From Nocardioides iriomotensis (GTDB lineage Bacteria > Actinomycetota > Actinomycetes > Propionibacteriales > Nocardioidaceae), in contig NZ_SDPU01000020.1 in the NCBI RefSeq assembly GCF_004168035.1, forward strand, positions 1 through 64,000: a DNA stretch of 64,000 nt. The letters are read 5' to 3'. The notes beneath the pieces are model-generated. The model saw only the letters and a list, made by a program, of their open reading frames with translations, did no database searches and had not been told where the DNA came from. A program made the translations under genes and the position numbers. Shown here in pieces: positions 923 through 28,767 of the stretch (position 1 is its first letter; each line of letters opens with the position of its first letter).

Positions 923-1537
923 ATGGCGGGGATGTCCCCCACGCACGTCTGGTACGTCAGCTACGGCTCGAACATGTCCGCGGACCGGTTCGGCTACTAC
1001 CTGAGCGGCGGTCTGCCGCCGGGTGGGAGCCGGCACAACCCGGGTGCCCGCGACGCCACGCCGCCACTGCGCTCGATCCCGGTGGACCTCCCCGGCACCG
1101 TCTACTTCGCCGGCGAGTCGCCGCAGTGGGGCGGCGGCGTCGCGTTCTACGACCACGAGACGCCGGGCGACTCGGTGGGGCGCGGCTACCTCGTCACGCC
1201 CGCCCAGTTCGCCGACGTCGCGGCGCAGGAGATGTACCGGGTCCCGCAGCACGGCGACCCGCTCGAGCAGATCGTCACCGCTCCGCTGCCGGGTGGCCGG
1301 CACACCGCCGGGCCCGGCCGCTACGAGACGCTGGTCGAGGTCGGCCAGGTCGACGACCGGCCGCTGCTCACGTTCACCTCACCGCACGGCGCGGAGCACG
1401 TCCCGCACAACCCGCCCAGCCCGGCGTACGTCGAGCACCTCCGCGCCGGGCTCCGGGAGTCGCGCGGGTGGGACGACGCGGCCGTCGACGCGTACGTCGC
1501 GCGGTTGGCCGGTCAGGGCCTGCCGAGCGCGCGGTAG
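923..1537 (+). CDS. Gamma-glutamylcyclotransferase-like protein (often labelled histone deacetylase)
   Basis: About 204 residues. The N-terminus VWYVSYGSNM is the YGSN substrate loop typical of the gamma-glutamylcyclotransferase-like fold. It is followed by a region rich in short beta strands (VYFAGES, GGGVAFYD, GYLVTPAQF) as in that family. Actinobacterial relatives are often annotated histone deacetylase, a label the sequence does not support: no deacetylase metal-binding motifs are seen. The substrate is unknown. Two ATG codons (923 and 932) are possible, neither with a good ribosome site. Its 3' end overlaps the 3' end of the convergent UDP-glucose dehydrogenase gene by 25 bp. Confidence 0.75.
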   Translation: MAGMSPTHVWYVSYGSNMSADRFGYYLSGGLPPGGSRHNPGARDATPPLRSIPVDLPGTVYFAGESPQWGGGVAFYDHETPGDSVGRGYLVTPAQFADVAAQEMYRVPQHGDPLEQIVTAPLPGGRHTAGPGRYETLVEVGQVDDRPLLTFTSPHGAEHVPHNPPSPAYVEHLRAGLRESRGWDDAAVDAYVARLAGQGLPSAR

Positions 1538-2844: not shown

Positions 2845-3012
2845 CGTGGGTCCTTCCCCTCGCTTGCTTGCCCAGTCACCAGCCTCACAGCGCCGCGACC
2901 TGCGCAGACCCGTCATTCCCCGGACCTGCGCTACGCCGATTGACCGATGTAGGCGCTACGGCCCCCGCGGTGTGCTTTGCGCAGTTCCTGAGGTCGGGGG
3001 AGGAGATTGCGC

Positions 3013-3720
3013 ATGCGGCTACTCACGGTGGCGGCACATCCGGACGACGAGACGCTGGGGGCCGGCGGCACGATGGCGTGGCACGCGGCCCGCGGCGACA
3101 CCGTCTGGGCCTGCGTGCTGGCCGACGGCGCCAGCTCGCGGCACGGCCGCGTCGAGCAGCAGGCCGCCTGTGCCCGCAACGCCGCCCAGGTGCTCGGCCT
3201 GGACCGCCTCGTGATGGTCGGGCTTCCGGACCAGCGCCTCGACACGCTCAGCCTGCTCGACGTGATCACGCCGATCGAGCAGGTCATCGAGGAGCTGCAG
3301 CCCGACGTCGTGCTGACGCACTTCCCCGGCGACGTCAACGAGGACCACCGCCTGGTTGCGCGGGCCACGCTCGTGGCGACGCGCCCGGTGCCCGGCACCT
3401 CGGTGTCGCGGGTGTGTGCCTTCCAGATCCCGTCCTCGACGGACTGGGCGCCGCCGATCCCGGGCAGCGTCTTCGCGCCGAACCTGTACGTCGACATCAG
3501 CGAGACGCTCGACGTGAAGCTCACCGCCATGAAGGCGTACGCCGAGACCTTCGTCAGTGAGGTCAGGCCTTTCCCGCACCCACGTTCCATCGAGGCACTC
3601 ACCGCCTACGCCCAGGGGCACGGCGCCGCCTCGGGCCTGCTCGCGGCCGAGCCGTTCATGATCCTGCGCGAGTCGGCGACGGCCGGCATGCGCGGTCCGC
3701 GAGGTGGTGACGGGGGATGA
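3013..3720 (+). CDS. PIG-L family N-acetylglucosaminyl deacetylase-like hydrolase
   Basis: 235 residues, LmbE/PIG-L fold. The zinc-binding AHPDDE motif is at about residues 7-12 and the third ligand region (NEDHRLVARA) near residue 115. Family members remove the N-acetyl group from GlcNAc-type sugars on small thiols, lipids or polysaccharides; in this locus an acetylated sugar intermediate is the likely substrate (inference). AGGAG at 3001-3005 fixes ATG 3013, although TTG 3007 is in frame. The stop overlaps the start of the next gene (ATGA), so the two are translationally coupled. Confidence 0.9.
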   Translation: MRLLTVAAHPDDETLGAGGTMAWHAARGDTVWACVLADGASSRHGRVEQQAACARNAAQVLGLDRLVMVGLPDQRLDTLSLLDVITPIEQVIEELQPDVVLTHFPGDVNEDHRLVARATLVATRPVPGTSVSRVCAFQIPSSTDWAPPIPGSVFAPNLYVDISETLDVKLTAMKAYAETFVSEVRPFPHPRSIEALTAYAQGHGAASGLLAAEPFMILRESATAGMRGPRGGDGG

Positions 3721-4319
3721 ACGAGGCTCTCCGCAACGTCTTCGACCGCAGCGTGGCTGCGGTCGCGTTGGTCCTGCTCAGTCCCGTCCTGCTGGTGATC
3801 AGCATCCTGGTGAAGGCGACGTCGCCGGGACCGGTGCTGTTCCGCCAGGTTCGTGTCGGCAAGGACGGCCGGCCGTTCAGCATCTGCAAGTTCCGCACCA
3901 TGACCCACACCGGCGCGACGGGGTCGGCGGAGGTCTCGCCGCTCGGCGACCCCCGTGTGACGCGTGTGGGTCGCGTCCTCCGCGGTTGGTACCTCGACGA
4001 GCTGCCTCAGCTGCTGAACGTCGTGCGCGGGGACATGGGCCTGGTCGGACCGAGGCCCGAGACCCCGGAGTTCGTCGCGCTCTACAGCGAGGACGAGCGC
4101 CGGGTGCTGTCGGTCCGACCAGGGCTCGCGGGCCCGTCCACGTTGGGGTTCATGAACGAGGCCGAGCGCCTCGCCGGCCACGCGGACCCGAACGCCCACT
4201 ACCGGGACGTGCTGCTCCACGAGCGCGTCCGCCTCGACCTGTCGTACCTCGAGCAGCGCTCGTTCGGCTACGACCTGCGCCTTCTCTGCCGGCAGGTGAT
4301 CGCCATTGCGCGCCACTGA
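3717..4319 (+). CDS. PglC/WecP-like sugar-phosphate transferase (initiating glycosyltransferase)
   Basis: 200 residues, the minimal form of the bacterial sugar transferase family (monotopic phosphoglycosyl transferase). It moves a sugar-1-phosphate from a UDP-sugar to undecaprenyl phosphate, starting repeat-unit assembly on the inner membrane face. Visible signs are one hydrophobic N-terminal segment (residues 13-32), the KFRTM block, the DELPQL motif carrying the catalytic Asp-Glu pair, and GDMGLVGPRP. The long family (WbaP, WcaJ) has extra membrane segments that are absent here. The 4,6-dehydratase and aminotransferase elsewhere in the locus suggest a diamino- or amino-dideoxy sugar as the first sugar (inference). 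Confidence 0.92.
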   Translation: MNEALRNVFDRSVAAVALVLLSPVLLVISILVKATSPGPVLFRQVRVGKDGRPFSICKFRTMTHTGATGSAEVSPLGDPRVTRVGRVLRGWYLDELPQLLNVVRGDMGLVGPRPETPEFVALYSEDERRVLSVRPGLAGPSTLGFMNEAERLAGHADPNAHYRDVLLHERVRLDLSYLEQRSFGYDLRLLCRQVIAIARH

Positions 4320-7161: not shown

Positions 7162-7176
7162 ACCATCCTCCACACA

Positions 7177-7209: not shown

Positions 7210-7254
7210 ATCGCACCGACACACCCTCCCCGGCTCGGCAACCAGGAGACCCGC

Positions 7255-11912: not shown

Positions 11913-12617
11913 TCAGTCCGCGGACGGGCCGCCGACGAGCGCGTGTACGGCCTCAGCAGCCAGCGCCGCCAGCTCGTCGGCGGTCTCTCCGTACGACGGC
12001 AGGCGGTGCACCGGGACCGGACAGGCCTGGAGGACGTCGTCGAGGACCTGCTGACCGCGTCGCAGCGCCGCGGCCCGCTTGCGCGGGCCGAGCTGCTGCA
12101 CGCGGCTGTGCTGGGAGGCCCGAGCGGCGAGGCGGTGCGCCGCCAGGTCCGGGGGTACGTCGAGGAGCACCACGAGGTGGGGGCGCGAGGCGGCAGGGAC
12201 GCTCGGCCACAGGTCGGCGGCACCGAGCTCGTGGGCGCGCAGCAGCGCGGTCCACGTCGTCTGCACCAGGCCCTCCTCGAGGAGCCGGACGCCCGGGGCG
12301 CGGCGGCCGCGCGCGACGATCCGCTCGGTGGCCAGCCACTGGGCCAGCACCGCGGCGGTGTCGCGCCGGGAGGACTGCCCGCTGCGCACGACCACGCCGG
12401 CGGACCGCGCGGCGGAGACGGGGGAGTGGGCGGCCTGGGCGGCGGCGAGCCCGACCCGGCGCAGCACCCGCACCTCGCGCCGCACGCGCGCGGAGACACC
12501 GACGTCCCCGACCTCGCAGGGCAGTCCCTCGGACCGCAACCGGGCGACGAGCGCGTCGGCGAGCGTGCTCTTGCCCGATCCGGGCAGACCGGCGAGCTCG
12601 ACGACGAGTCCGGACAC
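11913..12617 (-). CDS. P-loop kinase-like protein, third of three in the polysaccharide operon
   Basis: 234 residues. A Walker A motif (LAGLPGSGKSTLADAL, residues about 8-23) opens the protein, as in small-molecule or nucleoside-type kinases. A later block HLVVLLDVPPDLAAHR resembles the substrate/phosphate-sensing strand of dTMP-kinase-like folds. The substrate is unknown. GTG 12617 begins 2 bases after the previous gene's stop; upstream in-frame sequence belongs to that gene. Being third in a row of P-loop proteins suggests a phosphorylation step on a sugar, lipid or polymer precursor, but this is inference. Confidence 0.75.
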   Translation of the reverse strand: MSGLVVELAGLPGSGKSTLADALVARLRSEGLPCEVGDVGVSARVRREVRVLRRVGLAAAQAAHSPVSAARSAGVVVRSGQSSRRDTAAVLAQWLATERIVARGRRAPGVRLLEEGLVQTTWTALLRAHELGAADLWPSVPAASRPHLVVLLDVPPDLAAHRLAARASQHSRVQQLGPRKRAAALRRGQQVLDDVLQACPVPVHRLPSYGETADELAALAAEAVHALVGGPSAD

Positions 12618-12619
12618 CG

Positions 12620-13285
12620 TCAGCCCGCCGCCTGGTGAGCGCGCTGGCGCAGGGCCTGCCGCACGAGACCGACCTGCTGCTCGACGGTGAGCTCGGTGGT
12701 GATCAGCCGCAGCACCTCGGCGCCCTCGCGGGCGAGCGCGTCGGCGACGCGGTGGACGTGCCGGCGCTCGCTGTCGAGGTAGGCACGCAGGCTCTCGTTG
12801 TCGAGCTCGTCGGTGACGTGCTGCTTGCGCCGGCCGCGCACGCGGTTCGCCAGGGTGGCGGTGTCGGCGTCGACGATCACCAGCAGGTCCAGCAGGCTCG
12901 CGGTCTCGACGCAGCGCTGGGTCCACCAGGCGCTGCCGTGCGGCCGGTCGCGCAGCTGCATCATGCGCACCAGTGTGTACGCGGCGCCCTGGTCGAAGAC
13001 CACCGTCCGGGCGCCCTGCGACATCCGGTTGCGCGCGACGTGCTGCGCGGCGGTCACCCGGGCCGCCCACGAGACCCAGCGGCGACGGTCGACGTCGGGC
13101 GGCGGCGCGACGGCGACCGGCCACGACCGGGCCATCGACCAGGCCAGCGCGGACAGGTCGCCGCGCGAGTGGTCCTTCACGACGGTCACGCCGTCCAGCG
13201 CGGCGAGCGCGTCGGCGAGTCCGGACTTCCCGGCGCCGGGAGCCCCGAGCAGCTCGACGACGGCGCCACCGCGCCGCGCGTTCAC
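12620..13285 (-). CDS. P-loop kinase-like protein, second of three
   Basis: 221 residues with Walker A LLGAPGAGKSGLADAL near residues 10-25 and a strand LLDLLVIVDADTATLANRV that resembles the acid-containing strand of thymidylate-kinase-like folds. It is distinct from the proteins on either side. The GTG start overlaps the preceding stop (GTGA at 13282-13285), so translation is coupled. Its substrate cannot be read from sequence. Short and charged C-terminus, no membrane segment, so cytoplasmic. Confidence 0.75.
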   Translation of the reverse strand: MNARRGGAVVELLGAPGAGKSGLADALAALDGVTVVKDHSRGDLSALAWSMARSWPVAVAPPPDVDRRRWVSWAARVTAAQHVARNRMSQGARTVVFDQGAAYTLVRMMQLRDRPHGSAWWTQRCVETASLLDLLVIVDADTATLANRVRGRRKQHVTDELDNESLRAYLDSERRHVHRVADALAREGAEVLRLITTELTVEQQVGLVRQALRQRAHQAAG

Positions 13286-14805
13286 AGCCGCTCCCACACC
13301 GCTCGTCGTACGGCGTCCAGCACCTCGTCCGGCGGCAGGGTGGCGTCCACGACGACCGCGCCGCTGCCGGACCAGTCCGCCTCGTAGACCTCGGTGTTGC
13401 GGGCCCGGACGTAGCGGCTCGGCTCGTCGAACCGGCGGGCGACCGCGACCTCGGGGTCGAGGCGCAGCACCACCAGGACGTCCGGCGGCTGGATCTGGTC
13501 GTAGATGCGCTGCTCGGCCCGGGCGATCCGCAGGGTCAGCCGCGAGAACCGCTCGGGGGTGCGCAGCGTCCACGTGGTCCGCGGGCCGTCCATCGTCGCG
13601 ATCTGCTTCACCGGCCAGCGGTCGGTGACCACCAGGCCGCCCGTGTCGGCCTCGCGACGCGCCTTGGTGTAGTCGCGCAGCCGGTCGCGGCCGGTGAACA
13701 GGTGCCACAGCGCCCACGCGTTGCCCGGGAAGTCCTCGGGCGTGGCACTGCGCGGGTCGACCGAGGCCCAGGCGGACTCGAGCAGCCCGGCGCTGCGGGC
13801 GACGTACATCGGGCCCTTGACGGCCAGGGTGAGCAGCGACGGGCGTGGCTTGCCCAGGTGCAGCTGCTTCACGCGCAGCGGCCCGGCGAGCCACTTCGTC
13901 GTGCCGGCGACCGCGGTCGACTTGCCCGCGCCGTCCCCGCCGACGATCGCGATCGTGGCGCCGACCGGCGTGATCCGCTTGCGGGCCGGGAGCTTGAGGA
14001 CGTAGGCCCGCGAGCCCCAGGTGAAGCGCCGCCACATCCGCAGCCACAGGTCGTGCGGCCACGAGCGGCGCGCGTGCGGGCGCAGCGCGCGGAGCGTCGC
14101 CCGGCCGGCGGCGAGCCGCTTCGGCAGCGACGCCGGCTGCACCAGCGTCGCCAGGCAGCGCTCCCACAGGTCCGTGCCGATGCCCCCGAGGTGCTCGCGG
14201 ACGACGGCCAGCGTGGCCTCGGGGTCGGAGCGCTCGATGAGCCAGCCGAGCTCGCGCTTCTCGTTGCCGCCGAGCCGGCCCTTGCCGACGGCGACGGCGT
14301 CCCAGGTCGCGTGCTTGACCATCATCCGGATCACGAAGACCGCCAGCTCGAACTCCGCCGACGGGATCGGGAACACCGTGTCGTGCCGGCACGAGGCGAG
14401 GTACGCGTCCTCGATCGGCAGCCGGAAGTTCTTCGTGGTGTCGTCACCGAGCACGAGGCTGTAGTGCGCGTGCACGTGCACGAAGCGTCCGGAGGGCGCG
14501 TCGAGCGCGTAGTGGTGACTGACCCCCGGGTGGTCGCGACCACCCGGGGCCTTGGCGTGACGGAAGCCCAGCCGGGCGAGCACCTCGGTGAAGCGCACCC
14601 CGTCGTGCCGGTGGACCAGCAGGTCGAGGTCGTTCTCGCCCGTCGCCGACTTGTGCAGCATGTCGTTGCTCTTCCAATGGCAGTACCGCACCTCGGCCAG
14701 GCGCAGCTCCTCGCGGAGGGCGAGGGCCAGCGACTGGGCGCCGAGCGGCATCCCGGGCAACGGGCTCGAGATCAGGGCCTGGAGGTCGGCCTCGTCGGTC
14801 GTCAT
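13282..14805 (-). CDS. Two-domain protein: nucleotidyltransferase-like N-terminus and thymidylate-kinase-like C-terminus
   Basis: 507 residues. The N-terminal part has HWKSND and GENDLDLLV, the pattern of a nucleotidyltransferase-like fold, and many charged helices. The C-terminal part (from about residue 275) has Walker A GGDGAGKSTAVAG, the DRWP motif (near residue 391) and a LVVLRLDPEVAVARR strand typical of dTMP kinases. True thymidylate kinase is only about 210 residues, so this is a divergent kinase with an extra domain, probably acting on a glycan-pathway substrate. Start ATG 14805 lies 7 bases after the upstream gene's stop; the downstream kinase gene overlaps its stop. Confidence 0.8.
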   Translation of the reverse strand: MTTDEADLQALISSPLPGMPLGAQSLALALREELRLAEVRYCHWKSNDMLHKSATGENDLDLLVHRHDGVRFTEVLARLGFRHAKAPGGRDHPGVSHHYALDAPSGRFVHVHAHYSLVLGDDTTKNFRLPIEDAYLASCRHDTVFPIPSAEFELAVFVIRMMVKHATWDAVAVGKGRLGGNEKRELGWLIERSDPEATLAVVREHLGGIGTDLWERCLATLVQPASLPKRLAAGRATLRALRPHARRSWPHDLWLRMWRRFTWGSRAYVLKLPARKRITPVGATIAIVGGDGAGKSTAVAGTTKWLAGPLRVKQLHLGKPRPSLLTLAVKGPMYVARSAGLLESAWASVDPRSATPEDFPGNAWALWHLFTGRDRLRDYTKARREADTGGLVVTDRWPVKQIATMDGPRTTWTLRTPERFSRLTLRIARAEQRIYDQIQPPDVLVVLRLDPEVAVARRFDEPSRYVRARNTEVYEADWSGSGAVVVDATLPPDEVLDAVRRAVWERL

Positions 14806-14812
14806 CGGTCAC

Positions 14813-16876
14813 TCACCTTCGTTCCAGGTCGTGATCGGGCCACGACGGGTCGTTGGCCGCCCACGCGGAGGGGCGGGCGCGGCCGTGCTGGCGGCGCTGC
14901 TGGTGCGTCTGCTCGGGGATGTCCGGTGCGGGCACCGGGGCCGTGTTCGGGGTCCGCGGTGGCCGCCGGTCGAACAGGTGGATCCAGCCGATGCCCAGGG
15001 TCAGGCCGATCGCTGCACCGGCCAGGGCCAGCACCACGGGCGTCGGACGCAGCGGGGAGCGGGTGGTCCAGGCCGCGTCGACGACGGCGAGCTCGCCGGC
15101 CTCGGAGGTGTCGAGCGTGTCGAGCTCGGCGTACGAGCTGCGCAGCTGGACCAGCGTCTCCTGCAGGTTCGTGATCCGGGCCGCGAGCGTCGGGCGGGTC
15201 GCCGCGTCGGCGACGACCAGCTCGTCCTCGAGGCGGAGCAGCTCGCGGTTGCCGCGGGCGATGTCGGTCTCGAGCGACGTCAGCTGCTCGCCGATGAACG
15301 CCCGGTCCGAGGAGGTGATCGCCTCGCGGGAGGCCCGCAGCAGCGACTGCGCCACGGCGTTGACCAGGTCGGCGGCCTTCTCCCGGCTGTCGCTGTAGAC
15401 GCTGATCTCGACGAGCTGCGGGTTCTTGTCGCCCACCCGGGCGAACACGTCGGGCTGCAGGTCGCGCCAGGACTCGGCCCACCCGTCCTCGGCGACGGGA
15501 GCGAGCACCGGCTCGCGCCGGGTCAGGTCGGCGTACCGGACCGCCAGGGCCGCGCTGGTGTTGAGGGTGTTCTCGTCCGCGGCGACCGCGAGGTCACGGC
15601 CGACCTGCAGGCTGGTCTCGCCCTTGAACACCGGCGCCTGGACGAACGCGATCCCGAAGCCGACGACGCCACCGAGGATGGTCAGGGCCAGCAGGAAGCC
15701 GATCCGGTGCCGCAGCCGCTCGCCGAGACCGGCCGTCTCGGGGTCGAGCCGTGACGCGGGGCGCAGGGTCCTGCCCACCTCGGCGCCACGGGGGACCTGC
15801 TGCCGGTACAGACGCCCGTAGGCGTCGTTCATGCTCGTGACGCTGAAGTGGGAGACCACGGTCTCGCGGAGCCGCTGGCCGATCGCCGCGCGCTCCTCGG
15901 GCCCGACGGCGCGGAGCCGCTCGAGCGCTCGGGCGTACCCCTCGGTGTCGCCGACGCGCACGAGCGGGAGCCCCTTGGCGGCGCGGGCGATCTCGCGGTG
16001 CGGCGGGATGTCGGACGCCACGACCGGACGGCCGCAGGCCATCGCCTCGAGCATGGCGACCGGCAACCCCTCGCCCCCCGAGGTGGTGATGAACGCGTCG
16101 GCGTCGGCGAGCTCGCGGTAGACGTCGTCGCGGGCGATGATCCCGCGCATGGACACCGTGTGCAGCAGCTTCTCGTGCTGGATCCGGTCGTTGAGCTGGA
16201 GCCTCAGCTGGCCGTCGCCGATGAAGGTCAGCGTGTCGTCGCGCTTGCGCATCGCGAGGAACGCCGCCAGCACGGTGTGCGGGTGCTTGATCGGGATCAG
16301 CCGGCTGACCGCTGCCACGTGGAAGCCGGCGCCGCGGTGCGGCCGGTAGCCGTCGAGTGCGCGGTCGACCCGGTCGACGTCGACGCCGTTCGGGACCACC
16401 TGCAGCTTGTCGTGGCGCAGCCGGCGCAGCCGCTTCGGCATCGACTCGTACGCCGCCTGGCCGCACAGCACCACGAGCGGGAAGAGCAGCATGATCAGCC
16501 GCAGGAACATCCGGTTGCGGCGGCGGAAGCTCTGCCAGCTGTTGTGGATGGTGAAGACCAGGTCGCGGCGGGGCCGGCGCAGCCGGGCGTAGGTCCACAG
16601 CGTGACGATGCCGCTGGCCGGCGCGTGCACGTGCACCACGTCGTACTCGTCGGCGGTCAGCGCCCGGCGCAGCGCCCGGAAGCACCCGGGCACCGAGCCG
16701 TCGCCCTCGAACAGCCGGAGCTGGTCGGGCGGCGTCACGTCGGCCGGGAACAGGGAGCACACCGTGACCGTCCGGGTGTCGAGGACGGGCAGGCAGTGCT
16801 CGTTGTACTGGCTGTTGGTCGGCCCGGCCCGCACGATCACGTGCAGGACGGACAGGCCGGCGGCGGCGTCGGTCAT
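14813..16876 (-). CDS. Fusion: GT-B glycosyltransferase and Wzz-type chain-length determinant
   Basis: 687 residues read through without a stop. Residues 1 to about 370 are a family-4-like glycosyltransferase (LHVIVRAGPT start; SRLIPIKHPHTVLAAF; the E-x7-E region GGEGLPVAMLEAMACG near 264-280). From about 390 there is a membrane helix, a periplasm/exterior-facing Wzz-like region (FKGETSLQVGRDLA, then a long coiled-coil-prone stretch at about 500-590) and a second helix near 610-632, followed by a Pro/His-rich cytoplasmic tail with no tyrosine-kinase domain. ATG 16876 has AGGAGG upstream and overlaps the polymerase stop (ATGA). It would tie sugar addition to chain-length control. Confidence 0.85.
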   Translation of the reverse strand: MTDAAAGLSVLHVIVRAGPTNSQYNEHCLPVLDTRTVTVCSLFPADVTPPDQLRLFEGDGSVPGCFRALRRALTADEYDVVHVHAPASGIVTLWTYARLRRPRRDLVFTIHNSWQSFRRRNRMFLRLIMLLFPLVVLCGQAAYESMPKRLRRLRHDKLQVVPNGVDVDRVDRALDGYRPHRGAGFHVAAVSRLIPIKHPHTVLAAFLAMRKRDDTLTFIGDGQLRLQLNDRIQHEKLLHTVSMRGIIARDDVYRELADADAFITTSGGEGLPVAMLEAMACGRPVVASDIPPHREIARAAKGLPLVRVGDTEGYARALERLRAVGPEERAAIGQRLRETVVSHFSVTSMNDAYGRLYRQQVPRGAEVGRTLRPASRLDPETAGLGERLRHRIGFLLALTILGGVVGFGIAFVQAPVFKGETSLQVGRDLAVAADENTLNTSAALAVRYADLTRREPVLAPVAEDGWAESWRDLQPDVFARVGDKNPQLVEISVYSDSREKAADLVNAVAQSLLRASREAITSSDRAFIGEQLTSLETDIARGNRELLRLEDELVVADAATRPTLAARITNLQETLVQLRSSYAELDTLDTSEAGELAVVDAAWTTRSPLRPTPVVLALAGAAIGLTLGIGWIHLFDRRPPRTPNTAPVPAPDIPEQTHQQRRQHGRARPSAWAANDPSWPDHDLERR

Positions 16877-18156
16877 CGGTGGTGGCCTCCTGGCGTGAAC
16901 GTCGTCCGGCATCCCCGGACGGCGGCGAGTCCCAGAGCTGCGATCAGCCAGTAGTGCCGGTCGAGCATCTCGGGCGCGAACATGAAGACGGTGAGGATCC
17001 CGGCCATGGCGGCGAAGATCCCCCACAGCAGGTGTGCGTCGGGCGGGTGGGCGCGTCTGACCGTGCCGAACACGTCGAAGGCCCACAGCAGCAGCCAGAC
17101 CGCGAACGCCGCGGCGCCGATGGCGCCGACCTGGACGCCGAGCTGGAGCCACAGGTTGTGCGGCAGCTGCGCGGTCACCTCGACGTCGTACTCCGGCGCG
17201 ACGTACCGGAAGTTGTCGAGACCCGTGCCCACGAGCGGGGCGTCGAGGAACGCGAGCATGCCGGCGTTGGCGAGGTGCTCGCGGTCGCCGACCAGGTGCG
17301 CCTGGGCGCTGGAGTCGGACTTGTCGAGGCTGCGGTTGATCCGCTCCTCGAGCGTGTTGGGCAGCTGGCCCGATGCCACCAGCGCGAAACCGAGGAGCCC
17401 GCACGCCGTGACCAGGACCAGCAGCCGGGCGACCGCGCGCCGGAACCCGAGGCCCGGGCGGGCCACGATGACCACGACCAGGGCGACGCCGGTGCCGAGC
17501 AGGCTGCTGCGCGACCCGGACGCGCTGATCGCCCAGACGCTCAGGTAGACCCCGACCAGCAGGGCGAGCGTGACCATGATCCGGACCGGTCGCTTCTGGT
17601 GCCGGCTGAGCAGCCACAGCACGATCAGCAGCGGGACCAGGTAGGCGGCCGGGTAGCCGAGCCGGTTGGGGTTCTCGCTGTAGAACACCACGACGCGGCC
17701 GGCGCCCTGCGTGGGCCGGTAGACGTAGGAGTGCAGGATCGCGGCGAGCGTGCCGAAGCACAGCAGCGCGACCGACGTCACGGCCCGCTTCCGCGTGGTG
17801 ACCACGCCGATCACCACCGGCACCTGGATGAAGAAGATGAAGGCGTACTGCAGCACCTGGGTGAGCGCCTCCGTCGCGTGCGTGGCGCGGAAGGCGCTGA
17901 CCAGGGCGGCCAGGATGAAGACGTACGACGCCGCGAGGTAGCCGGCCGGCGGCCACACGAAGCGGCGCTGGCGCAGCAGGTAGGGCAGCGCCAGCAGGAC
18001 GAGCAGGTCGTAGACGCTGAAGCTGCGGACGATCAGCAGGTTGAGCGGAGCGACGATCGCGCCGCCGATGACGAGGACGTCCGGCAGGCGCAGCGGGGCG
18101 GCCTCGACGGCCGGCCGCGGTGTCGCGTGGGTCGGGTGGGTCACGTACGTCGTCAT
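16873..18156 (-). CDS. Wzy / O-antigen-ligase family polymerase
   Basis: 427 residues with about ten to twelve hydrophobic segments. The large extracellular loop region contains GDREHLANAGMLAFLDAPLVGTGLDNF, followed by LPHNLWLQLGVQVG, which matches the Wzy_C pattern (H-x-x-x-L-x-x-x-x-E/G type block) of O-antigen ligases and polymerases. It probably links lipid-carried repeat units outside the membrane. It sits between flippase and chain-length genes, as expected for a Wzx/Wzy-dependent pathway. The stop overlaps the next start (ATGA). Confidence 0.87.
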   Translation of the reverse strand: MTTYVTHPTHATPRPAVEAAPLRLPDVLVIGGAIVAPLNLLIVRSFSVYDLLVLLALPYLLRQRRFVWPPAGYLAASYVFILAALVSAFRATHATEALTQVLQYAFIFFIQVPVVIGVVTTRKRAVTSVALLCFGTLAAILHSYVYRPTQGAGRVVVFYSENPNRLGYPAAYLVPLLIVLWLLSRHQKRPVRIMVTLALLVGVYLSVWAISASGSRSSLLGTGVALVVVIVARPGLGFRRAVARLLVLVTACGLLGFALVASGQLPNTLEERINRSLDKSDSSAQAHLVGDREHLANAGMLAFLDAPLVGTGLDNFRYVAPEYDVEVTAQLPHNLWLQLGVQVGAIGAAAFAVWLLLWAFDVFGTVRRAHPPDAHLLWGIFAAMAGILTVFMFAPEMLDRHYWLIAALGLAAVRGCRTTFTPGGHHR

Positions 18157-18175: not shown

Positions 18176-19744
18176 TCATCGGCTGACCCGCTTCCCGACC
18201 ACGGCGCGGACCCGGCCCACGAGGCGCCGCCGCTGGGGACCGTTGAGGCCGAGCAGCAGGGAGACGCCGGTGGCCGCGAGCGCGGTCGCGCCGACGACCG
18301 GCACGAGCGTGAGCCAGCCCAGCGACGGCACCTGCGGTGCCACCTCGCGGGCGGCCAGGAGCAGGAGGGCGGTGGCCAGTGCCGGACGTGCGAGCGACGC
18401 GACCTGCCGGCTCAGGGGGATGCCGAGGAAGCGGCCGACGGCCACCGGGGCCGTCACGCCCAGCACAGCCCGGCCGGCCACCAGCCCGAGGCAGAGGCCG
18501 ACGGCCCCGCCGCCGAGGGGACCGGCGGCGAGGGCGGCGAGCCCGATCGAGACGACCGCCGCCACCACGCCGGCGACGACCTTGATGCGTGGCTTGAGGG
18601 CGACGTCGATGACGAACGTGTCGGTGCGGATCAGGGCGAGCTGGAACGCCAGCACGACGAGGAGCAGCGTGACGGTGTCGCCGGCGTACAGGTGGTCGCC
18701 GACCCACAGCCGGACGAACGCGTGGTTCCAGAGCATGATCGTGACGCTCATGCCGGTGCCGAGCACCCAGACCAGGGCCATCACCTCGCCGCGCAGCACG
18801 GCCGCCTTGTCACGGGCACCGGACCCGAGATAGCCGCCGATGCCGGGGATGGTCGCCTGCACGACCATCGAGAGGACCTGGGCCATCGCGTCGCAGACCC
18901 ACTTGGTCAGCGCGAACGCGGCGACGGTGGCGAGCGGCACGAACAGGGCGAGCACGAGGACGTCGCTGGCGATCATCAGCTCGAGCACGAGCTTCCAGCC
19001 GAGGAACCAGGCGGACAGCCCGAGGAACCAGCGCGCGAGGGTGCGGCTCGGGCGGGCGAGGCCGAACCAGGCCAGCCGACGGCGGGTGATCGACCAGAAC
19101 ACCACGCCGGTGAGCAGCGTGTTCGCGAACGTCGCGAGGGCGAGGCCCGGCAGGCCGAGGCCGAGCCGGACGGAGCCGATCATGAGCAGGCCGCCGACCA
19201 CGACCAGGGCGGTGGAGATGCCCATCCGGGCGTACCCGAGGTTCTCGCCGACCAGCGCCGAGCGCGGCAGCGTCAGCAGCGTCATCGCGGCCGCGTCGAC
19301 GGTCAGGATCGCGGCCGCGACCCGCAGCGGGGTGACCTGGCTGTCGGGGACCTCCATCAGGTGCGGCACCAGCCAGACGCCGAGGACGCCGGCGACGAGC
19401 AGGAGCGGCAGGAAGAGCAGCCAGACGAGCGCCGCGGCGCCCACCAGCTGCCGCTTCTCCGCGTCGGTGGCCGTCCACTGGCGGTGGGCGATGGCGTACT
19501 GGAGGGCCTGGGCCGAGCGGCCGCTCGCACCCCACACGTAGCTCGACCACTGCCAGAGCACCCGCCAGGCGCCGTACGTCGCGGCGCCGAGCCCGGAGAC
19601 GACGAGGGGGCTCACGACCAGCTCGACGAGGGCGCGGGCACCGTAGTCCAGCCCGGAGGCGACTGCGTTGAGGGACGCGCGCCGGGTCAGGTTACGGGTC
19701 GGCGAGGGCGCCGCCGTGGTGGCAGCGCGGCCCCCTGTCTTCAT
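18176..19744 (-). CDS. Wzx-type polysaccharide flippase
   Basis: 522 residues of the polysaccharide-export (MATE/MVF-like) superfamily with about twelve to fourteen membrane segments. It should move undecaprenyl-linked repeat units across the membrane. ATG 19744 follows a GGGGG stretch by 5 bases; a TTG 15 bases further upstream is less likely. Its gap to the polymerase gene is 19 bp. An 81-bp gap separates it from the upstream glycosyltransferase gene, possibly with its own ribosome site only. Confidence 0.88.
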   Translation of the reverse strand: MKTGGRAATTAAPSPTRNLTRRASLNAVASGLDYGARALVELVVSPLVVSGLGAATYGAWRVLWQWSSYVWGASGRSAQALQYAIAHRQWTATDAEKRQLVGAAALVWLLFLPLLLVAGVLGVWLVPHLMEVPDSQVTPLRVAAAILTVDAAAMTLLTLPRSALVGENLGYARMGISTALVVVGGLLMIGSVRLGLGLPGLALATFANTLLTGVVFWSITRRRLAWFGLARPSRTLARWFLGLSAWFLGWKLVLELMIASDVLVLALFVPLATVAAFALTKWVCDAMAQVLSMVVQATIPGIGGYLGSGARDKAAVLRGEVMALVWVLGTGMSVTIMLWNHAFVRLWVGDHLYAGDTVTLLLVVLAFQLALIRTDTFVIDVALKPRIKVVAGVVAAVVSIGLAALAAGPLGGGAVGLCLGLVAGRAVLGVTAPVAVGRFLGIPLSRQVASLARPALATALLLLAAREVAPQVPSLGWLTLVPVVGATALAATGVSLLLGLNGPQRRRLVGRVRAVVGKRVSR

Positions 19745-19825: not shown

Positions 19826-21094
19826 CTACGCAGATCGGAGGACATCCGCCTTCCGGGCCTCGGCGGTCTCGGGAACCACCTGGCCCACCAGGTCGCTGTA
19901 GAGCTCGTCGAGAGCCCGGCACATGACGTCGGTGGAGAAGTGCCCGCGTACCCGCTCGCGGCCGGCCGCGCCCATCGCCGCGGCCTCCGTCGGGTGGTCG
20001 AGCAGCCACAGCACCGAGCGCGCCATCGACGACGGATCGCCGGGCGTGGCGAGCAGGCCGGTGCAGCCGGGCTCCACCAGGTCCGGGACGCCGTTGACGG
20101 CGGTCGCCACGACCGCGCGGCCGGACGCCATCGCCTCCGTGACGGCCCGGCCCAGCCCCTCGTACCGCGACGGCACGCAGTAGACGTCGAACGCCGCGGC
20201 CACGCGTGGTGCGTCGGACCGGAACCCGGTGAACAGGATCGGCACGCCGAGCCGCTCCGCCTCGGCGTGGGTCTGCGCCTCCAGCCCGGCCGACTCCAGC
20301 GTCGCGTCCCCGACCATCACGAAGTGCACGTCGGGTCGGGACCGGTGCACCTCGGCGCACATCCGGACGAAGTCCAGCGGCGCCTTCTGCGCCACGATCC
20401 GGCCGACGGTGCCGACGACCGGCGCGCCGTCGTCGAGCCCGAGCTCGGCGAGCACGGCCGGGTCCGTCGTCGTCGGGATGTCGTCCAGCGCGACCGCCGA
20501 CGGCACGACGACGATCTTGCCGGGCGGGGCGATCCGGTTGTGCACAGCCTCCTGGGCGACGCGCGGCGCCACCGCGACGTAGTGGTGGGCCATGCCCCGC
20601 ACCGCGCGGTCGAGGAAGAGGTACAGGCGCCTGCGGGAACGGCTCAGCCCGTCGTGCGCGGCGAAGATGTGGAACGTGTGCACGACGACCGGCACCCGGG
20701 CGATCCGGGCAGCGACGCGAGCGATCAGGCCGGCCTTGCTGCAGTGCGTGTGCACGACCGTGAACCGCTCGCGCCGCATCAGCCGGACCAGCTCGAGGCA
20801 GGCGAGCAGGTCGTGCTTGGGCGAGATCGTCTCCTTCATGTGGCGTACGTCGACGCAGCGGACGCCGGCCGCCTCGGCCTGCTCCCACAGCGGGCCGCCC
20901 GGCATCGCGGCCACCCAGACCTCGTACCGGTCGGGGTCCATCCCGGCCGCCGAGAGCAGCGTGTTGCCGCCCGAGCCCGCGATGAACCGCGTGATGACGT
21001 GCAGCACCTTGACCTTGGGCAGCTCCGGCTGACGGGGGAGCAGCGCCCTCGGCACGATGCGGCGCGGGACGGCGGGCCAGACCGAGCGGCTCAT
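19826..21094 (-). CDS. Family-4-like glycosyltransferase
   Basis: 422 residues, GT-B fold. N-terminal VKVLHVITRFIAGSGGN holds the glycine-rich acceptor-side loop. The C-terminal domain has VGTVGRIVAQKAPLDF and a PSRYEGLGRAVTEAMASG block carrying the conserved E-x7-E acids that bind the nucleotide-sugar. Two glycine residues at GSGG are typical of WbnK/KanE-like enzymes. It adds one sugar of the repeat unit on the cytoplasmic side; donor and acceptor are unknown. The start overlaps the stop of the epimerase gene (ATGA). Confidence 0.9.
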   Translation of the reverse strand: MSRSVWPAVPRRIVPRALLPRQPELPKVKVLHVITRFIAGSGGNTLLSAAGMDPDRYEVWVAAMPGGPLWEQAEAAGVRCVDVRHMKETISPKHDLLACLELVRLMRRERFTVVHTHCSKAGLIARVAARIARVPVVVHTFHIFAAHDGLSRSRRRLYLFLDRAVRGMAHHYVAVAPRVAQEAVHNRIAPPGKIVVVPSAVALDDIPTTTDPAVLAELGLDDGAPVVGTVGRIVAQKAPLDFVRMCAEVHRSRPDVHFVMVGDATLESAGLEAQTHAEAERLGVPILFTGFRSDAPRVAAAFDVYCVPSRYEGLGRAVTEAMASGRAVVATAVNGVPDLVEPGCTGLLATPGDPSSMARSVLWLLDHPTEAAAMGAAGRERVRGHFSTDVMCRALDELYSDLVGQVVPETAEARKADVLRSA

Positions 21095-22065
21095 GCGCCC
21101 GCCTCGGCCGCGGCCGTCGCCTCGTGGGCCTGCTCCCAGCCGAGCCGCGCGGCGTCGACCATGTTGGCCAGGCCGGCGTCCAGGGTCGTGCGGGGGTGGT
21201 AGCCGAAGCCCTTGCGGGCGGTCGTGGTGTCGGCCGCGGTGTGCCGGACGTCGCCGCGCTGGCTGGGCAGCCGGACCAGGTGGATCGGGCCGGCCAGCGC
21301 CTGCACCTTCTCGACCACCTCGTTCATCGTCGTGCGGGACCCGCCGCCGATGTTGGCGACGCCGACCCAGGGCGAGAGCGCCGCCTGCCGCATCGCGGTC
21401 ACGACGTCCCACACGTAGGTGAAGTCGCGGCTCTGCTGCCCGTCGCCGTACAGCAGGAACGGGTCGCCGGACAGCGCGGCCTCGACCAGCCGGGTGAACG
21501 CCATGTCGGGCCGCTGCCGCGGACCGTAGACGGTGAACAGCCGCAGCGAGACCGTCGGCACGCCCGACGTGGTGCGGTACAGCTCGCAGAGGTGCTCGGC
21601 CGCCAGCTTGGTCACGCCGTACGGCGACACCGGGCGCGGCGTCAGGTCCTCGGTGGTCGGGTAGGTCTCGGCGTCGCCGTACACGGACGACGACGAGGCG
21701 TAGACGACCTTGTAGACCTTGGTGTTCCTGGCCGCCTCGAGCACCCGCTGGGTGGCGAGGATGTTGCGGGACAGGTACGGCGCGAACTCCTCACCCCACG
21801 AGGCACGCACGCCCGGCTGCCCCGCGAGGTGGTAGACCACGTCCGCCTTCTCGAAGAGCATCTCGAGCGGGGCGGTGGCCAGGTCGAGCCGGCACTCGAC
21901 GAACCCCGGCCGGTTCCGCAGGTGCGCGATGTTGCGCTCCTTGCGGCGCGGGTCGTAGTAGTCGGTCAGGGAGTCGATGCCCAAGACCTCGTCGCCCTTG
22001 TCCAGCAGGTGCTGGCTCAGGTGCGACCCGATGAAACCGGCGGCGCCGGTGACGACTGCTCTCAT
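21091..22065 (-). CDS. NAD-dependent NDP-sugar epimerase/dehydratase
   Basis: 324 residues, extended SDR fold. GAAGFIG (residues 8-14) is the Rossmann loop, SSSSVYG holds the catalytic Ser, and SPYGVTK supplies the Tyr-x3-Lys pair. The length and the DSLTDYYDPRRKERN block resemble UDP-glucuronate 4-epimerases and related UDP-hexose epimerases; with a UDP-glucose dehydrogenase in the locus, a UDP-uronate substrate is attractive (inference). GGAGG lies 6 bases before ATG 22065. A 57-bp gap to the gene upstream contains no gene. Confidence 0.9.
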   Translation of the reverse strand: MRAVVTGAAGFIGSHLSQHLLDKGDEVLGIDSLTDYYDPRRKERNIAHLRNRPGFVECRLDLATAPLEMLFEKADVVYHLAGQPGVRASWGEEFAPYLSRNILATQRVLEAARNTKVYKVVYASSSSVYGDAETYPTTEDLTPRPVSPYGVTKLAAEHLCELYRTTSGVPTVSLRLFTVYGPRQRPDMAFTRLVEAALSGDPFLLYGDGQQSRDFTYVWDVVTAMRQAALSPWVGVANIGGGSRTTMNEVVEKVQALAGPIHLVRLPSQRGDVRHTAADTTTARKGFGYHPRTTLDAGLANMVDAARLGWEQAHEATAAAEAGA

Positions 22066-22122
22066 GACTACCCTCCAGGTCGTCGTGCTCGTGTGCTGGT
22101 GCTGTGTGCTCTCTGCGACGGG

Positions 22123-23097
22123 TCAGGTGCGGGCCGGCATCGCGTGGACGGCTTGCTGGAGGAGGGTGAGCCGGCCGGCGTCGCCGTGCCCGAGCTCGGT
22201 GAGCGCGACCTCGAACTGCGCCAGCAGCAGGACGTCCCGCCACAGGCGCCCCGGGACGGTCAGCGCCTCCAGCGCGCCGTGCATCCCGGCCTTGACCGAC
22301 GTCGCGAACTTCGTGCGTCCGGCGACGACCTCCGGCAGCCGCAGCCCGGTGGCCTCCACGGCGTACCGGCCGAGGTCGCCCAGCGGGTCGTGGTCCGCCC
22401 GCGCGAGGCTCCAGTCGTCGACCCCGATGTCGCCGTTCCGGACGAAGACGTGCCGGGCGCACAGGCACCCGTGCGTCATGGCCGTCGGCACCTCGACCTG
22501 CGCGAGCCGGCTGCGCGCGCGCAGCAGCGCGCCGATCGCCGGCCGGACGTGGGCCGCCCCGCGGTACCGGCTGAGCACCTGGTCGACCGCGCTGCGGCCG
22601 AGCTCCACGTGCCCGGGCGGACCGGACGTGGCTTCCCACAGGTCGGTGAGCCAGGCGACCACGGTGACGAACTGCTCCCGCGAGACGGTGGCCGGCGCGG
22701 GCGGGGCGCCGACGGACGCGAGCCCCGGGACCGCGGTGACGACCAGGCCGCGCTTCCCGCCCGGTCCGTCGACCCACTCCACGACGTGTGGAACGGTCGC
22801 GGCGAGCCGGCCGCGAAGCCTCTCGTCGAGGACCGCCAGGGCGCGGACCTCGTTGGTGACGGCCTCGTCGCCCCCCTGGCCGTGGGCCAGCCCGACGGCG
22901 AACCGCAGCTCGTCGGTGCCACGGTCGGCGAGGAACAGCCTGCGGGTGCCGGGCGCGGCGCCGGCGATGACGTCGGCGATGACAAGCCGCTGCTCGCGCA
23001 GCAGCTGGTCCAGGTCTCGGGGGCGCGGGTAGGGCCGCGCGGTGGGCCCACGGACCCGCGCGCTCGACTCGGTCGTGCCCCGCTCATCAGAAGTCAT
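22123..23097 (-). CDS. Degenerate aminoglycoside-phosphotransferase-type kinase homologue
   Basis: 324 residues. The C-terminal half follows the APH/choline-kinase layout: THGCLCARH, then GVDDWSLA, then DHDPLGDLGRYA. In active members the first motif reads HGDxxxxN; here the catalytic Asp is Cys and the metal-binding Asn is His, while the later metal-binding Asp and the GDLGRY helix are kept. It may be an inactive scaffold or use altered chemistry. Its ATG lies 11 bases inside the end of the dehydratase gene, so the two are translated together. The role in polysaccharide synthesis is unknown. Confidence 0.72.
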   Translation of the reverse strand: MTSDERGTTESSARVRGPTARPYPRPRDLDQLLREQRLVIADVIAGAAPGTRRLFLADRGTDELRFAVGLAHGQGGDEAVTNEVRALAVLDERLRGRLAATVPHVVEWVDGPGGKRGLVVTAVPGLASVGAPPAPATVSREQFVTVVAWLTDLWEATSGPPGHVELGRSAVDQVLSRYRGAAHVRPAIGALLRARSRLAQVEVPTAMTHGCLCARHVFVRNGDIGVDDWSLARADHDPLGDLGRYAVEATGLRLPEVVAGRTKFATSVKAGMHGALEALTVPGRLWRDVLLLAQFEVALTELGHGDAGRLTLLQQAVHAMPART

Positions 23098-24583
23098 CGG
23101 GGTACGGCGCGGCCTGCGCGGGAATCTTCGGCACCTGCGGGTGGTAGTCCGGCAGCAGTGCGGTCAGTCCCCGGCGGACGGCGTCGCGGTCGTTGGCGGA
23201 CGCGGCGTGGTACAGCGTGCGCAGCCTCTGCTGGAAGCCCCAGGCGGGCTCCGCGACGTCGGTGCGGTAGATGCGGGGGTGCTCGGTGAGCGTGGGCGTC
23301 TCGTGCTCGCTGAACAGCGTCTCGTTGAGCTTCTCGCCCGGACGCATCCCGGTGAAGACGATGTCGACGTCGCTGCGGTTCATCAGCTTCGCGAACGACT
23401 GGACGATGTCGACGATCCGCACGGGCTCGCCCATGTCGAGCACGAACACCTCGCCGCGGTCGGCGAGCCGGGCGGCCTCGACGACCAGGCCGGCGGCCTC
23501 CTCGATCGTCATGAAGAACCGGGTCATGTCCGGGTGCGTCACGGTCATCGGCAGGCCGGCGTTGAGCTGTTCGGCGAGCACGCTGAGCAGCGACCCCCGG
23601 CTGCCGAGGACGTTGCCGAAGCGGACGGACGCGACCTTCGTCGTGCCGCCGTGCTCCTGCTGGACGAGCAGCTCGGCGAGACGCTTGGTCGCGCCGAGGA
23701 TCGACGTCGGGTCGGCGGCCTTGTCGGTGGAGATCAGGATGAACCGCTCGGCCTCGTACTTCAGGGCCGCCCACAGGACGTTCTCGGTGCCCCGCACGTT
23801 GGACTTCACGGCCTCGCACGGATGGCGCTCGAGCAGCGGCAGGTGCTTGTGCGCGGCCGCGTGGAAGACCAGGTCCGGGCGCGCGTCGGCGAACACCTGG
23901 TCGATGCGCTCGCGGTCGCGGATGTCGGCGACGATGCAGTCGTCGCTGTCGAGCAGGCCCTGGCCGAACAGCTCGAGCTGGAGCCGGTGCAGGTTGGACT
24001 CGTCGTGGTCGAGGAGGATCAGGCGCCTGGGTGCGAAGCCGAAGACCTGGCGGCACAGCTCGGAGCCGATCGACCCGCCGGCACCGGTGACGAGCACGAC
24101 CCGGTCCTCGATCATCGCCGCGGCCTCGCGGCTGATCACGTGGACCTCCTCGCGGCCGATCAGCTGGCCGACGTCGAGCCAGCGCATGTCGCTGCCGACC
24201 ACCTTCCGCTCCAGGGCGGCGACGAAGGACGGGAGGTACCGCACGCTCGCGCCCGCGCTGGAGGCGGCGTGGCCGACCTGCCGGAACACGTTGGGGTCCA
24301 GGCCGGGGATCGCGATGACGACGACGTCGACCTTCTCCTCCTCGGCGATCCGTTGGACGTCGCCGAGCCTGCCGAGCACCGGGAAGGGTGCCGGCTGCTC
24401 GCGCTCGATGAGGTTGTCGTCCGCGAAGCCGATCGGTTCGAGTCCGAACGACGGTGTGGCGGCAAGGTCCCGAGCCAATGCACGACCAGCCTCGCCCGCC
24501 CCCACGACGAGCGTGCGCAGCAGCCGCGCGGGTGCGCGGTTGGCCAGCAGCAGCGGCTCGGTCCGTTCGTTGAGCATGGTCAC
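23087..24583 (-). CDS. Soluble CapD/PglF-like NDP-sugar 4,6-dehydratase
   Basis: 498 residues. The first half has a nucleotide-binding fold (VVGAGEAGRALARDLA); the second is the CapD-type SDR (VLVTGAGGSIGSEL, then STDKAADPTSILGATKR with the Lys of the active site). Typical PglF/CapD proteins carry four N-terminal membrane helices (about 600 residues); these are absent, so this one is probably cytoplasmic. The expected product is a UDP-4-keto-6-deoxy sugar for the aminotransferase encoded just upstream. GTG 24583 is chosen over ATG 24577 because AGGAGG sits 7 bases before it and it overlaps the aminotransferase stop. Confidence 0.88.
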   Translation of the reverse strand: MTMLNERTEPLLLANRAPARLLRTLVVGAGEAGRALARDLAATPSFGLEPIGFADDNLIEREQPAPFPVLGRLGDVQRIAEEEKVDVVVIAIPGLDPNVFRQVGHAASSAGASVRYLPSFVAALERKVVGSDMRWLDVGQLIGREEVHVISREAAAMIEDRVVLVTGAGGSIGSELCRQVFGFAPRRLILLDHDESNLHRLQLELFGQGLLDSDDCIVADIRDRERIDQVFADARPDLVFHAAAHKHLPLLERHPCEAVKSNVRGTENVLWAALKYEAERFILISTDKAADPTSILGATKRLAELLVQQEHGGTTKVASVRFGNVLGSRGSLLSVLAEQLNAGLPMTVTHPDMTRFFMTIEEAAGLVVEAARLADRGEVFVLDMGEPVRIVDIVQSFAKLMNRSDVDIVFTGMRPGEKLNETLFSEHETPTLTEHPRIYRTDVAEPAWGFQQRLRTLYHAASANDRDAVRRGLTALLPDYHPQVPKIPAQAAPYPDDF

Positions 24584-25791
24584 GGCAGTGCCTCCTGGTA
24601 GCGGTTCATCGTCGACGTGGTGCCGGGTGCGAGCTCGTGCAGGGCGTCGACCACGATGTCGACGTCCTCGTCGGCGAGCCCCTGGTGCAAGGGGAGCGAG
24701 AGCGTCTCGGCGAACACCGCGTCGGCGCCGGGCAGGCCGCCCGAAGGAACGACGCAGATGTCGCGGAAGTGCGGAAAGTGGTGGAGCGGGATGAAGTGCA
24801 CGCTGGTCCCGATGCCGCGCTCGGCGAGCAGCCGGGACAGGTCGTCGCGGGTCACGCCGCTCTCGGGCGTCACCCGGACGACGTACAGGTGCCAGGCGTG
24901 CTCGCCGGTCTCCGGGTCGGTCGGCAGGACGAGGCCGGGAACGTCGGCGAGTCCCGCGGCGTACCGGCCGGCGATCTGGTGCCGGCGGACCTGCCAGGCG
25001 TCGAGGTGGCGCAGCTGCGCGCGGCCGATGGCGGCATGCACGTCGGAGAGGTTGGCCTTCACGCCGGCCTCCTCGACGGAGTACTGCCAGCTGCCGCCGG
25101 GGAGGTACCGCCGCCAGGCGTCGCTGGTCATCCCGTGCAGCCGGGTCACGCGCGCCTGGGCGGCGACCTCCTCGTCGCGGGTGGTGAGCGCGCCGCCCTC
25201 GCCGATCGGGAGGTTCTTGGTGGCGTAGAAGCTGAAGCAGGTCGCCCGGGAGAGCCCGCCGACCAGCTCGGCGCCGACGCGCGTGCCCAGCGCGTGGGCG
25301 GCGTCCTCGACGACCTGGTCGAGGGTCAGTCCGGCCGCCTCGGCCAGGGCCGCCACGTCGGCGGGGTACCCGGCGAAGTGCAGGGCGAGCATCGCCTGCA
25401 CGCCACCGGCCTCCCGAGCGGCCGCGGCGCACGTGCGGGGTGACACCGTGCCGGTGTCCGGCTCGACGTCGGCGACCACCGGGACCAGGCCGGCGTGCCG
25501 GACGGCCTCGACGGCCCCGCAGAAGGTGACCGCCGGGACCAGGACCTTGGCGTCCCGTGGAAGGCGGAGGCCGCGGAAGGCGATCTCGATCGCCGCCGTG
25601 CACGACGCCACCGTTACGGCGTGCGGCACCTCGAGCCAGGCAGCGAGCTCTTCCTCGAACGCGGCGCACTCGGGACCGGTGGTGAGCCAGCCGGAGCGGA
25701 GCACACGCTCCACGGCCGGCCCGGTCTCGGGTGCCACGACAGGACGCGAGAAGGGGACGCTCTGTTGTGCCCTCGACGTCGCCGAAGTCAT
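24580..25791 (-). CDS. DegT/DnrJ/EryC1-type PLP-dependent sugar aminotransferase
   Basis: 403 residues. It aminates a keto-sugar nucleotide, probably the 4-keto product of the adjacent dehydratase, giving a 4-amino-4,6-dideoxy sugar as in the PglF/PglE pair. The PLP lysine is in SFYATKNLPIGEGG (near residue 192), with the upstream VVEDAAHALG acid that contacts the pyridine nitrogen. ATG 25791 starts the long minus-strand polysaccharide operon; a GTG 15 bases upstream is an alternative. No PglD-like acetyltransferase is seen nearby. Confidence 0.9.
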   Translation of the reverse strand: MTSATSRAQQSVPFSRPVVAPETGPAVERVLRSGWLTTGPECAAFEEELAAWLEVPHAVTVASCTAAIEIAFRGLRLPRDAKVLVPAVTFCGAVEAVRHAGLVPVVADVEPDTGTVSPRTCAAAAREAGGVQAMLALHFAGYPADVAALAEAAGLTLDQVVEDAAHALGTRVGAELVGGLSRATCFSFYATKNLPIGEGGALTTRDEEVAAQARVTRLHGMTSDAWRRYLPGGSWQYSVEEAGVKANLSDVHAAIGRAQLRHLDAWQVRRHQIAGRYAAGLADVPGLVLPTDPETGEHAWHLYVVRVTPESGVTRDDLSRLLAERGIGTSVHFIPLHHFPHFRDICVVPSGGLPGADAVFAETLSLPLHQGLADEDVDIVVDALHELAPGTTSTMNRYQEALP

Positions 25792-28756: not shown

Positions 28757-28767
28757 GCCGCCCGCCC

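Follow-up and report, generated by a model that had tools for sequence, protein, structure and literature searches.

The stretch of DNA analysed here (the window, 64,000 nucleotides) carries a Wzx/Wzy-type locus in which eleven genes follow one another on the minus strand, from 25704 down to 11913. In the order of transcription they encode a PseC-like aminotransferase, a PseB-like dehydratase, a 324-residue protein, an epimerase, a second GT4 glycosyltransferase (GT), a Wzx-like and a Wzy-like protein and then, as the eighth product, the subject of this report, a GT4 glycosyltransferase joined to a Wzz-type co-polymerase (PCP) in one open frame, followed by an NTP_transf_5/P-loop protein and two further P-loop proteins (Table 1). 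The fusion gene overlaps the Wzy-like gene by 4 bases (ATGA) and is separated from the next gene by 7 bases, and its Wzz module is encoded together with the Wzy-like and the Wzx-like (weak match) genes. Genes for a dehydrogenase, a deacetylase and a priming phosphoglycosyltransferase sit beyond two large PKD-domain genes. A Pfam scan of 21 other proteins encoded between 1513 and 36160, a subset of the open reading frames there, found no Wzz or BY-kinase, and the two P-loop kinase-like proteins (11913..13285) are not BY-kinase-like in Pfam. In whole-genome searches, the fusion is the sole PF02706 match on its contig (C13), on which TIGR01007 has no match; elsewhere in the genome there are two more Wzz matches (on C6, above the cut-off, and on C1, below it), each in a frame with a kinase-type TIGR01007 match as well, and one TIGR01007 match exceeds the cut-off (159 bits).

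The surroundings of the gene hold several further features, described here with the help of L117 and L118, the regions around the two other fused copies (L006 and L007, respectively). The 324-residue protein (22123-23097, minus strand) has no Pfam match at E 0.01, and proteins 41-45% identical to it occupy the same place in L117 and L118. A pair of LuxR-type regulators, of which one has a receiver domain, is encoded next to the cluster at 27418-29331 (minus strand), along with a small ATPase that resembles histidine kinases; L117 has 40-55% identical proteins in the same place, and these proteins may be dedicated to control of the cluster. On the plus strand, at 4450-11829, two genes that diverge from the EPS run encode very large proteins in which several PKD domains occur, in the first together with a lamin-tail domain, and both proteins match a single large protein next to the cluster in L118 (4654-7968). 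Near a QYNEHC glycosyltransferase, NTP_transf_5-like proteins with a CH[WF]KSN motif occur in the window (13282-14805) and in six of ten stretches scanned (L009, L111, L112, L114, L117 and L118), with at most two per stretch, and perhaps form one repeat-unit modification module.

Table 1. Features of the locus, with positions in the window.
Feature	Position	Strand	Basis	Remarks
GT4-Wzz fusion gene	14813..16876	-	Single open frame; coding periodicity; fused homologues L006 and L007	687 aa
GT-B (GT4) glycosyltransferase domain	15797..16876	-	Pfam; alignment; Foldseek	Residues 1-360
Linker	15719..15796	-	pLDDT < 50 at 361-386; alignment	Residues 361-386 (about 26), predicted disordered
Wzz/PCP module	14966..15718	-	Hydropathy; models; Foldseek	Residues 387-637: TM1 (about 394-412), alpha/beta base, helical hairpin (498-586), TM2 (about 614-632)
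Short C-terminal tail	14816..14965	-		Residues 638-687; without Walker A pattern or kinase
Wzy/O-antigen ligase-like polymerase	16873..18156	-	Pfam Wzy_C 3.1e-16	Proteins next to the fusion in L117/L118 are 56-57% identical
Wzx-like flippase	18176..19744	-	No Pfam match; weak NCBIfam WZX_like	62-65% identical proteins in L117/L118
Second, separate GT4 glycosyltransferase	19826..21094	-	Pfam	Counterparts in L117/L118
NTP_transf_5-like / P-loop protein	13282..14805	-	Weak Pfam, below cut-off	CHWKSN motif; 65-66% identical in L117/L118
Two P-loop kinase-like proteins	12620-13285, 11913-12617	-	AAA_33 / thymidylate kinase	Counterparts in L117/L118
Epimerase, 324-aa gene, PseB-like dehydratase, PseC-like aminotransferase	21091..25704	-	NCBIfam matches below cut-off
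UDP-sugar dehydrogenase (-), PIG-L deacetylase (+), Bac_transf priming phosphoglycosyltransferase (+; 3717-4319)	1513..4319		Pfam

Coding evidence for a single frame

The fusion gene starts with the ATG at 16876 and ends with the stop at 14813-14815, its only stop in translation; the span 14813-16876 given for its 687 residues by the first-pass annotation, a model's reading of the sequence alone, is thus correct, the strand being minus. Because the sequence has a GC content of 72.5% and the same frame also stays open for about 360 codons upstream of the start, openness is in itself weak evidence, and the case for one gene therefore rests on coding periodicity and on homology on both sides of the junction. 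The GC content at the third codon position is 0.971 for the gene as a whole and 0.94-1.00 in each of twelve 100-codon blocks (residues 1-650, including the junction), while by codon position it is 0.88/0.61/0.91 in the linker region (residues 358-390).

The glycosyltransferase half and the linker

The N-terminal half matches the Pfam families Glyco_trans_1_4 (6e-22), Glycos_transf_1 (1.8e-21) and Glyco_transf_4 (1.1e-15), with bit scores above the cut-offs (58.6 against 28.5 for PF13439, 76.9 against 26.4 for PF00534, and 78.9 against 27 for PF13692). Four residues, E269 and E277 (EX7E), R192 and K197, are invariant in all five aligned homologues, and we take them to be the EX7E motif and the donor-phosphate R/K residues of GT4 enzymes. 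H111, also invariant in the five, is Q in the stand-alone members L023-L028 and is therefore not diagnostic. The hydropathy profile has a hydrophobic stretch at residues 123-141, inside the GT domain. By sequence, the closest solved relative is PimA (E 1.3e-10), and a Foldseek search with the model of the whole fusion returned the GT4 enzymes BshA (rank 1, E 8.3e-16), PimA (2gej, E 3.3e-14) and HepE, the AlphaFold2 model having a GT-B fold up to residue 358. The linker that follows is poorly conserved in the alignment, varying among the fused copies, and thus gives no support for a specific allostery.

The Wzz half and the missing kinase

Both Pfam matches of the C-terminal half of the window copy lie below cut-off, GNVR (PF13807; 3.3e-06) with 27.4 bits against 27.7 and Wzz (PF02706; E 0.01) with 16.6 bits against 25.5; for PF02706 the L007 copy exceeds the cut-off (30.9 bits) and the L006 copy falls short of it (21.8 bits). 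TM1 and TM2 are both detected in L007; in L006, TM1 does not reach the hydropathy cut of 1.6. The structural models, built on shallow alignments of five sequences for the whole fusion (AlphaFold2; mean pLDDT 73.9, pTM 0.52) and of three for the Wzz half alone (mean pLDDT 71.0), give the Wzz half a predicted architecture of two TM helices flanking a PCP-type alpha/beta domain with long helices. In the former, a low-confidence segment (361-386) is followed by a helix at 382-412, two hairpin helices (498-555 and 561-586), a TM helix (613-636) and an unstructured tail. The Wzz-half model matched Wzc (9r62, E 1.9e-10), WzzE (8p3p, E 2.3e-07) and the KpsE complex 8tsh (E 1.2e-06) in Foldseek, and the matches listed, among them Wzc, WzzE, KpsMT-KpsE and the full-length PCP 6rbg, had moderate query TM-scores of 0.33-0.53; by sequence, the closest solved relative is Wzc (E 1.6e-4).

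A C-terminal BY-kinase is absent from the fusion, in which 43-49 residues without a Walker A pattern follow the Wzz match. At the other Wzz loci of the family, at least 256 residues follow it in 22 of 24 cases, a count which, for the several matches that end near position 160 of the 288-position profile, includes the rest of Wzz, and a Walker A pattern is found in six of 24; these 24 are the loci above threshold among the 27 examined (L037-L063), with L041, L055 and L061, which gave no match, left out of the counts. L053 and L054 likewise leave no room for a kinase, so that a Wzz without one also occurs outside the fusion. At E 0.1, PF02706 matches the L006 genome (G340, 96% complete) at the fusion alone, and the highest TIGR01007 score there is 47 bits, short of the BY-kinase cut-off of 108. 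The L007 genome (G339) has a 479-residue frame in which Wzz matches weakly (18.9 bits) and TIGR01007 scores 99.5 bits, just below cut-off.

Fused relatives, rarity and origin

The fused homologues L006 (693 aa) and L007 (695 aa) are joined at the same point as the window copy, the C-terminal helix of the GT, and resemble it more in the GT (57-60% identity) than in the Wzz part (39-42%), the pairwise ranges among all fused copies being 57-68% and 39-53%, respectively. The three cases, two of which (L006 and L007) are metagenome-assembled, belong to one family and each to a different genus, the L006 and L007 records being named Propionibacteriales. Genomes G340 and G339 were rejected as extra fused cases, having every 40-mer in common with L006 and L007, so that there are three cases and not five. 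Of 18 window proteins compared, 14 have matches in L117 and 12 in L118, stretches that both end at contig or fetch limits; both keep the gene order between the P-loop genes and the dehydratase, and in L117 it extends further, across aminotransferase and regulators. The arrangement described in the first-pass annotation, in which a single frame of a Wzx/Wzy cluster encodes a GT-B glycosyltransferase and a two-helix Wzz, is conserved in three genomes, and its caveat that relatives might always be split at the junction does not hold, L006 and L007 being fused and the more distant GT relatives standing alone. The GT4-Wzz fusion is real, conserved and rare.

How rare can be read from genome samples of the family, order, class and phylum, which overlap and of which the last three were drawn from larger groups. 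The fusion is present in three of 341 family genomes (protein query, E <= 1e-30); one of 391 order genomes matches at E <= 1e-30 and one of 226 class genomes with an alignment query at E <= 1e-40, in both cases the window's own; and eight of 396 phylum genomes match the alignment query (E <= 1e-40), with the window's own alone fused, so that the fusion is rejected as a common state. In the genus, five of seven genomes match at E <= 1e-10, at full length only the window's own, and among 302 matching plasmid records none has one place that covers 80% of the query. The other seven phylum matches are six stand-alone GTs, of which that in G803 seems to be split over two frames, and G830 (L029), whose match (82-640, with one stop) was rejected as a split fusion, for a TGA and an RBS-like stretch lie there between a different GT4 gene and a wzz-kinase gene. 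A contig scan with six short peptide patterns, which can miss distant fused relatives, returned four loci, the fused L006 and L007 and the stand-alone GTs L008 and L009.

A survey made from the Wzz side, with PF02706 present in 187 of 296 phylum genomes, took in 17 loci with open frames of at least 617 aa, among the matches listed, besides 30 given loci. It relied on a GT4-type profile, with which fusions to other GT families would be missed, and covered part of the phylum, with about 1.5 kb on either side of most loci. Of 89 loci scanned (L022-L110), 82 have a Wzz open reading frame, and the five that have a GT4 in the same frame are the three known cases (the window three times, L006 and L007), the 77 others having no GT4 in the Wzz frame at E <= 1e-5. 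Among the matches listed, literature titles and the openings of abstracts report no GT-Wzz fusion; this search covered the literature, and a case annotated elsewhere may exist.

The GT belongs to a subfamily marked by the motif N[SG]QYNEHCLP, whose other members (L008, L009 and L111-L115) share this motif, are 40-45% identical to the window GT and mostly have P-loop genes nearby, but are stand-alone proteins of 352-387 aa as called (L009 has 368 aa by a longer start). L111 and L112 have wzz as a gene of its own (638 and 636 aa, respectively) in the cluster of the GT, about 3.8 kb from it, and no wzz was found in the 5.1-19.9 kb examined of L113-L116. The view, taken at the outset, that GT and Wzz are normally separate is borne out by these two clusters and by the 77 Wzz loci without a GT4 in the same frame. 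L111 also has a single 883-residue frame (5301-7952, minus strand) that combines a GT4 glycosyltransferase with a Wzx-type flippase, and its halves match neighbouring L112 genes at 7659-8846 (65%) and 6067-7638 (77%); this single case, for which an assembly error is possible, would be a second fusion of a GT to a membrane component in such a cluster.

In a tree of 14 sequences, the GT domains of the fused copies group as one clade (FastTree support 0.958), which is sister to the stand-alone members when the tree is rooted, distantly, on four other GT4 enzymes. Since the stand-alone members and the outgroups are unfused, a single fusion event in the ancestor of this cluster would be the simplest history, and the patchy presence of the fusion in the family would fit an EPS locus that moves horizontally.

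Proposed function and alternative explanations

PCPs have their termini in the cytoplasm, the compartment in which repeat units are made, and the GT should therefore lie on the cytoplasmic side, a placement on the inner side of the chain-length complex that was also anticipated in the first-pass annotation and is consistent with the model. We consider it probable that the gene gives one polypeptide in which a flexible linker connects an active cytoplasmic GT4 enzyme with the N-terminus of a PCP that lacks a kinase, and which tethers a repeat-unit GT at the polymerisation complex. The fused GT would add one sugar to the undecaprenyl-linked repeat unit; the Wzz part would oligomerise with or beside Wzy, and several GT active sites would for that reason be placed under the polymerase; and finished lipid-linked units would be channelled to Wzx and Wzy locally, in fixed stoichiometry. 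In this way, the fusion would take over from the non-covalent association of GT and PCP known between separate proteins, and sugar addition may be coupled to chain-length control. A natural covalent GT-PCP fusion allows such coupling to be tested directly, one gene being cut and swapped, and gives purification of the assembly complex a fixed handle.

The join itself is hardly in doubt. We give almost no credence to an artefact in which a missed stop or frame error connects two neighbouring genes, even though L029, where a GT4 gene directly precedes the wzz-kinase gene in the same frame with one TGA and the RBS-like stretch between them, illustrates how such a join could come about; the same join recurs in three genomes at the identities given above, the window copy has no SD-like sequence and start for wzz, and the sequencing error at the junction against which the first-pass annotation had cautioned is rejected, as L006 and L007 carry the same fusion and no stop interrupts the frame in any of the three separate genome records. 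That one gene might yield two products, with an internal start or proteolysis freeing Wzz and the full-length fusion a minor or dual form, seems quite unlikely. The L006 and L007 genes do have an SD-like (GGAG-type) sequence before an ATG at residue 360 or 359, just after the end of the GT, and 4 of their 27 internal ATGs have such a sequence, so that free Wzz might also be made from an internal start in these two. The window copy has no equivalent ATG, none of its eight internal in-frame ATGs has an SD-like sequence, nor do its in-frame starts at 340, 349, 367 and 416, and of its 35 internal ATG, GTG and TTG codons two do, at residues 62 and 306.

Given a single product, the Wzz half could be a mere membrane anchor that sets stoichiometry for the GT, the two activities being independent, which we regard as a genuine though minor possibility: the disordered, poorly conserved linker agrees with it and retention is explained without any coupling, but the stand-alone members of the same GT subfamily manage without such an anchor, for which a co-polymerase would moreover be an unusual choice. 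Bolder, and in our judgement unlikely, is a new class of co-polymerase in which the GT replaces the tyrosine kinase as cytoplasmic control domain, with donor or acceptor occupancy of the GT active sites that the PCP gathers directly changing the state of the PCP and the supply of repeat units setting chain length without phosphorylation; the L006 genome, with the fusion as its only PF02706 match and no BY-kinase match above cut-off, is a natural test case. Highly improbable is a GT domain that has become a non-catalytic regulatory module sensing a sugar nucleotide for the PCP. Its position would be analogous to that of the regulatory cytoplasmic domains of PCPs such as Wzc, but the EX7E and R/K residues are kept as in the stand-alone relatives.

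Comparison with known systems

The GT4-Wzz fusion combines known parts in a domain arrangement that is new, and it is conserved although rare. With Wzc and the PCP-2a proteins it shares the PCP periplasmic domain, two TM helices and an extra cytoplasmic enzyme domain, and the best fold matches of its Wzz half are Wzc chains, but Wzc has a C-terminal BY-kinase whereas the fusion has an N-terminal glycosyltransferase. Like WzzB and WzzE (PCP-1), the fusion has no kinase, the same predicted fold and Wzy in the same operon, and unlike them it has a 390-residue cytoplasmic part ahead of TM1, the TM helices of WzzB/WzzE monomers being placed at the protein termini in a passage of a published account (PMC12004945).

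The closest functional parallel concerns separate proteins. In excerpts of two reports on Rhizobium leguminosarum, the PCP PssP2 interacts with the repeat-unit GT PssC, and PssP, unlike PssP2, shows no interaction with GTs (PMC4182512), while the GT PssI interacts with both PssP2 and the polymerase PssT (PMC9961541). The text available from a third source has the PCP CpsC heading a cascade that brings in polymerase, GTs and flippase (PMC10233549), and a section of a 2017 review treats GT-GT interactions in the Wzx/Wzy pathway as a postulate (PMC5748678). As far as these texts describe them, the contacts between GTs and PCPs rest on two-hybrid or localisation data (PMC4182512; PMC9961541; PMC10233549). 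By analogy, the channelling proposed for the fusion would agree with the published association of separate GT and PCP proteins, for some PCPs though not all; PssP2 and its partners PssC and PssI differ in being separate proteins whose association is, in the parts of the reports at hand, known by two-hybrid evidence, whereas in the fusion the link between GT and PCP is covalent.
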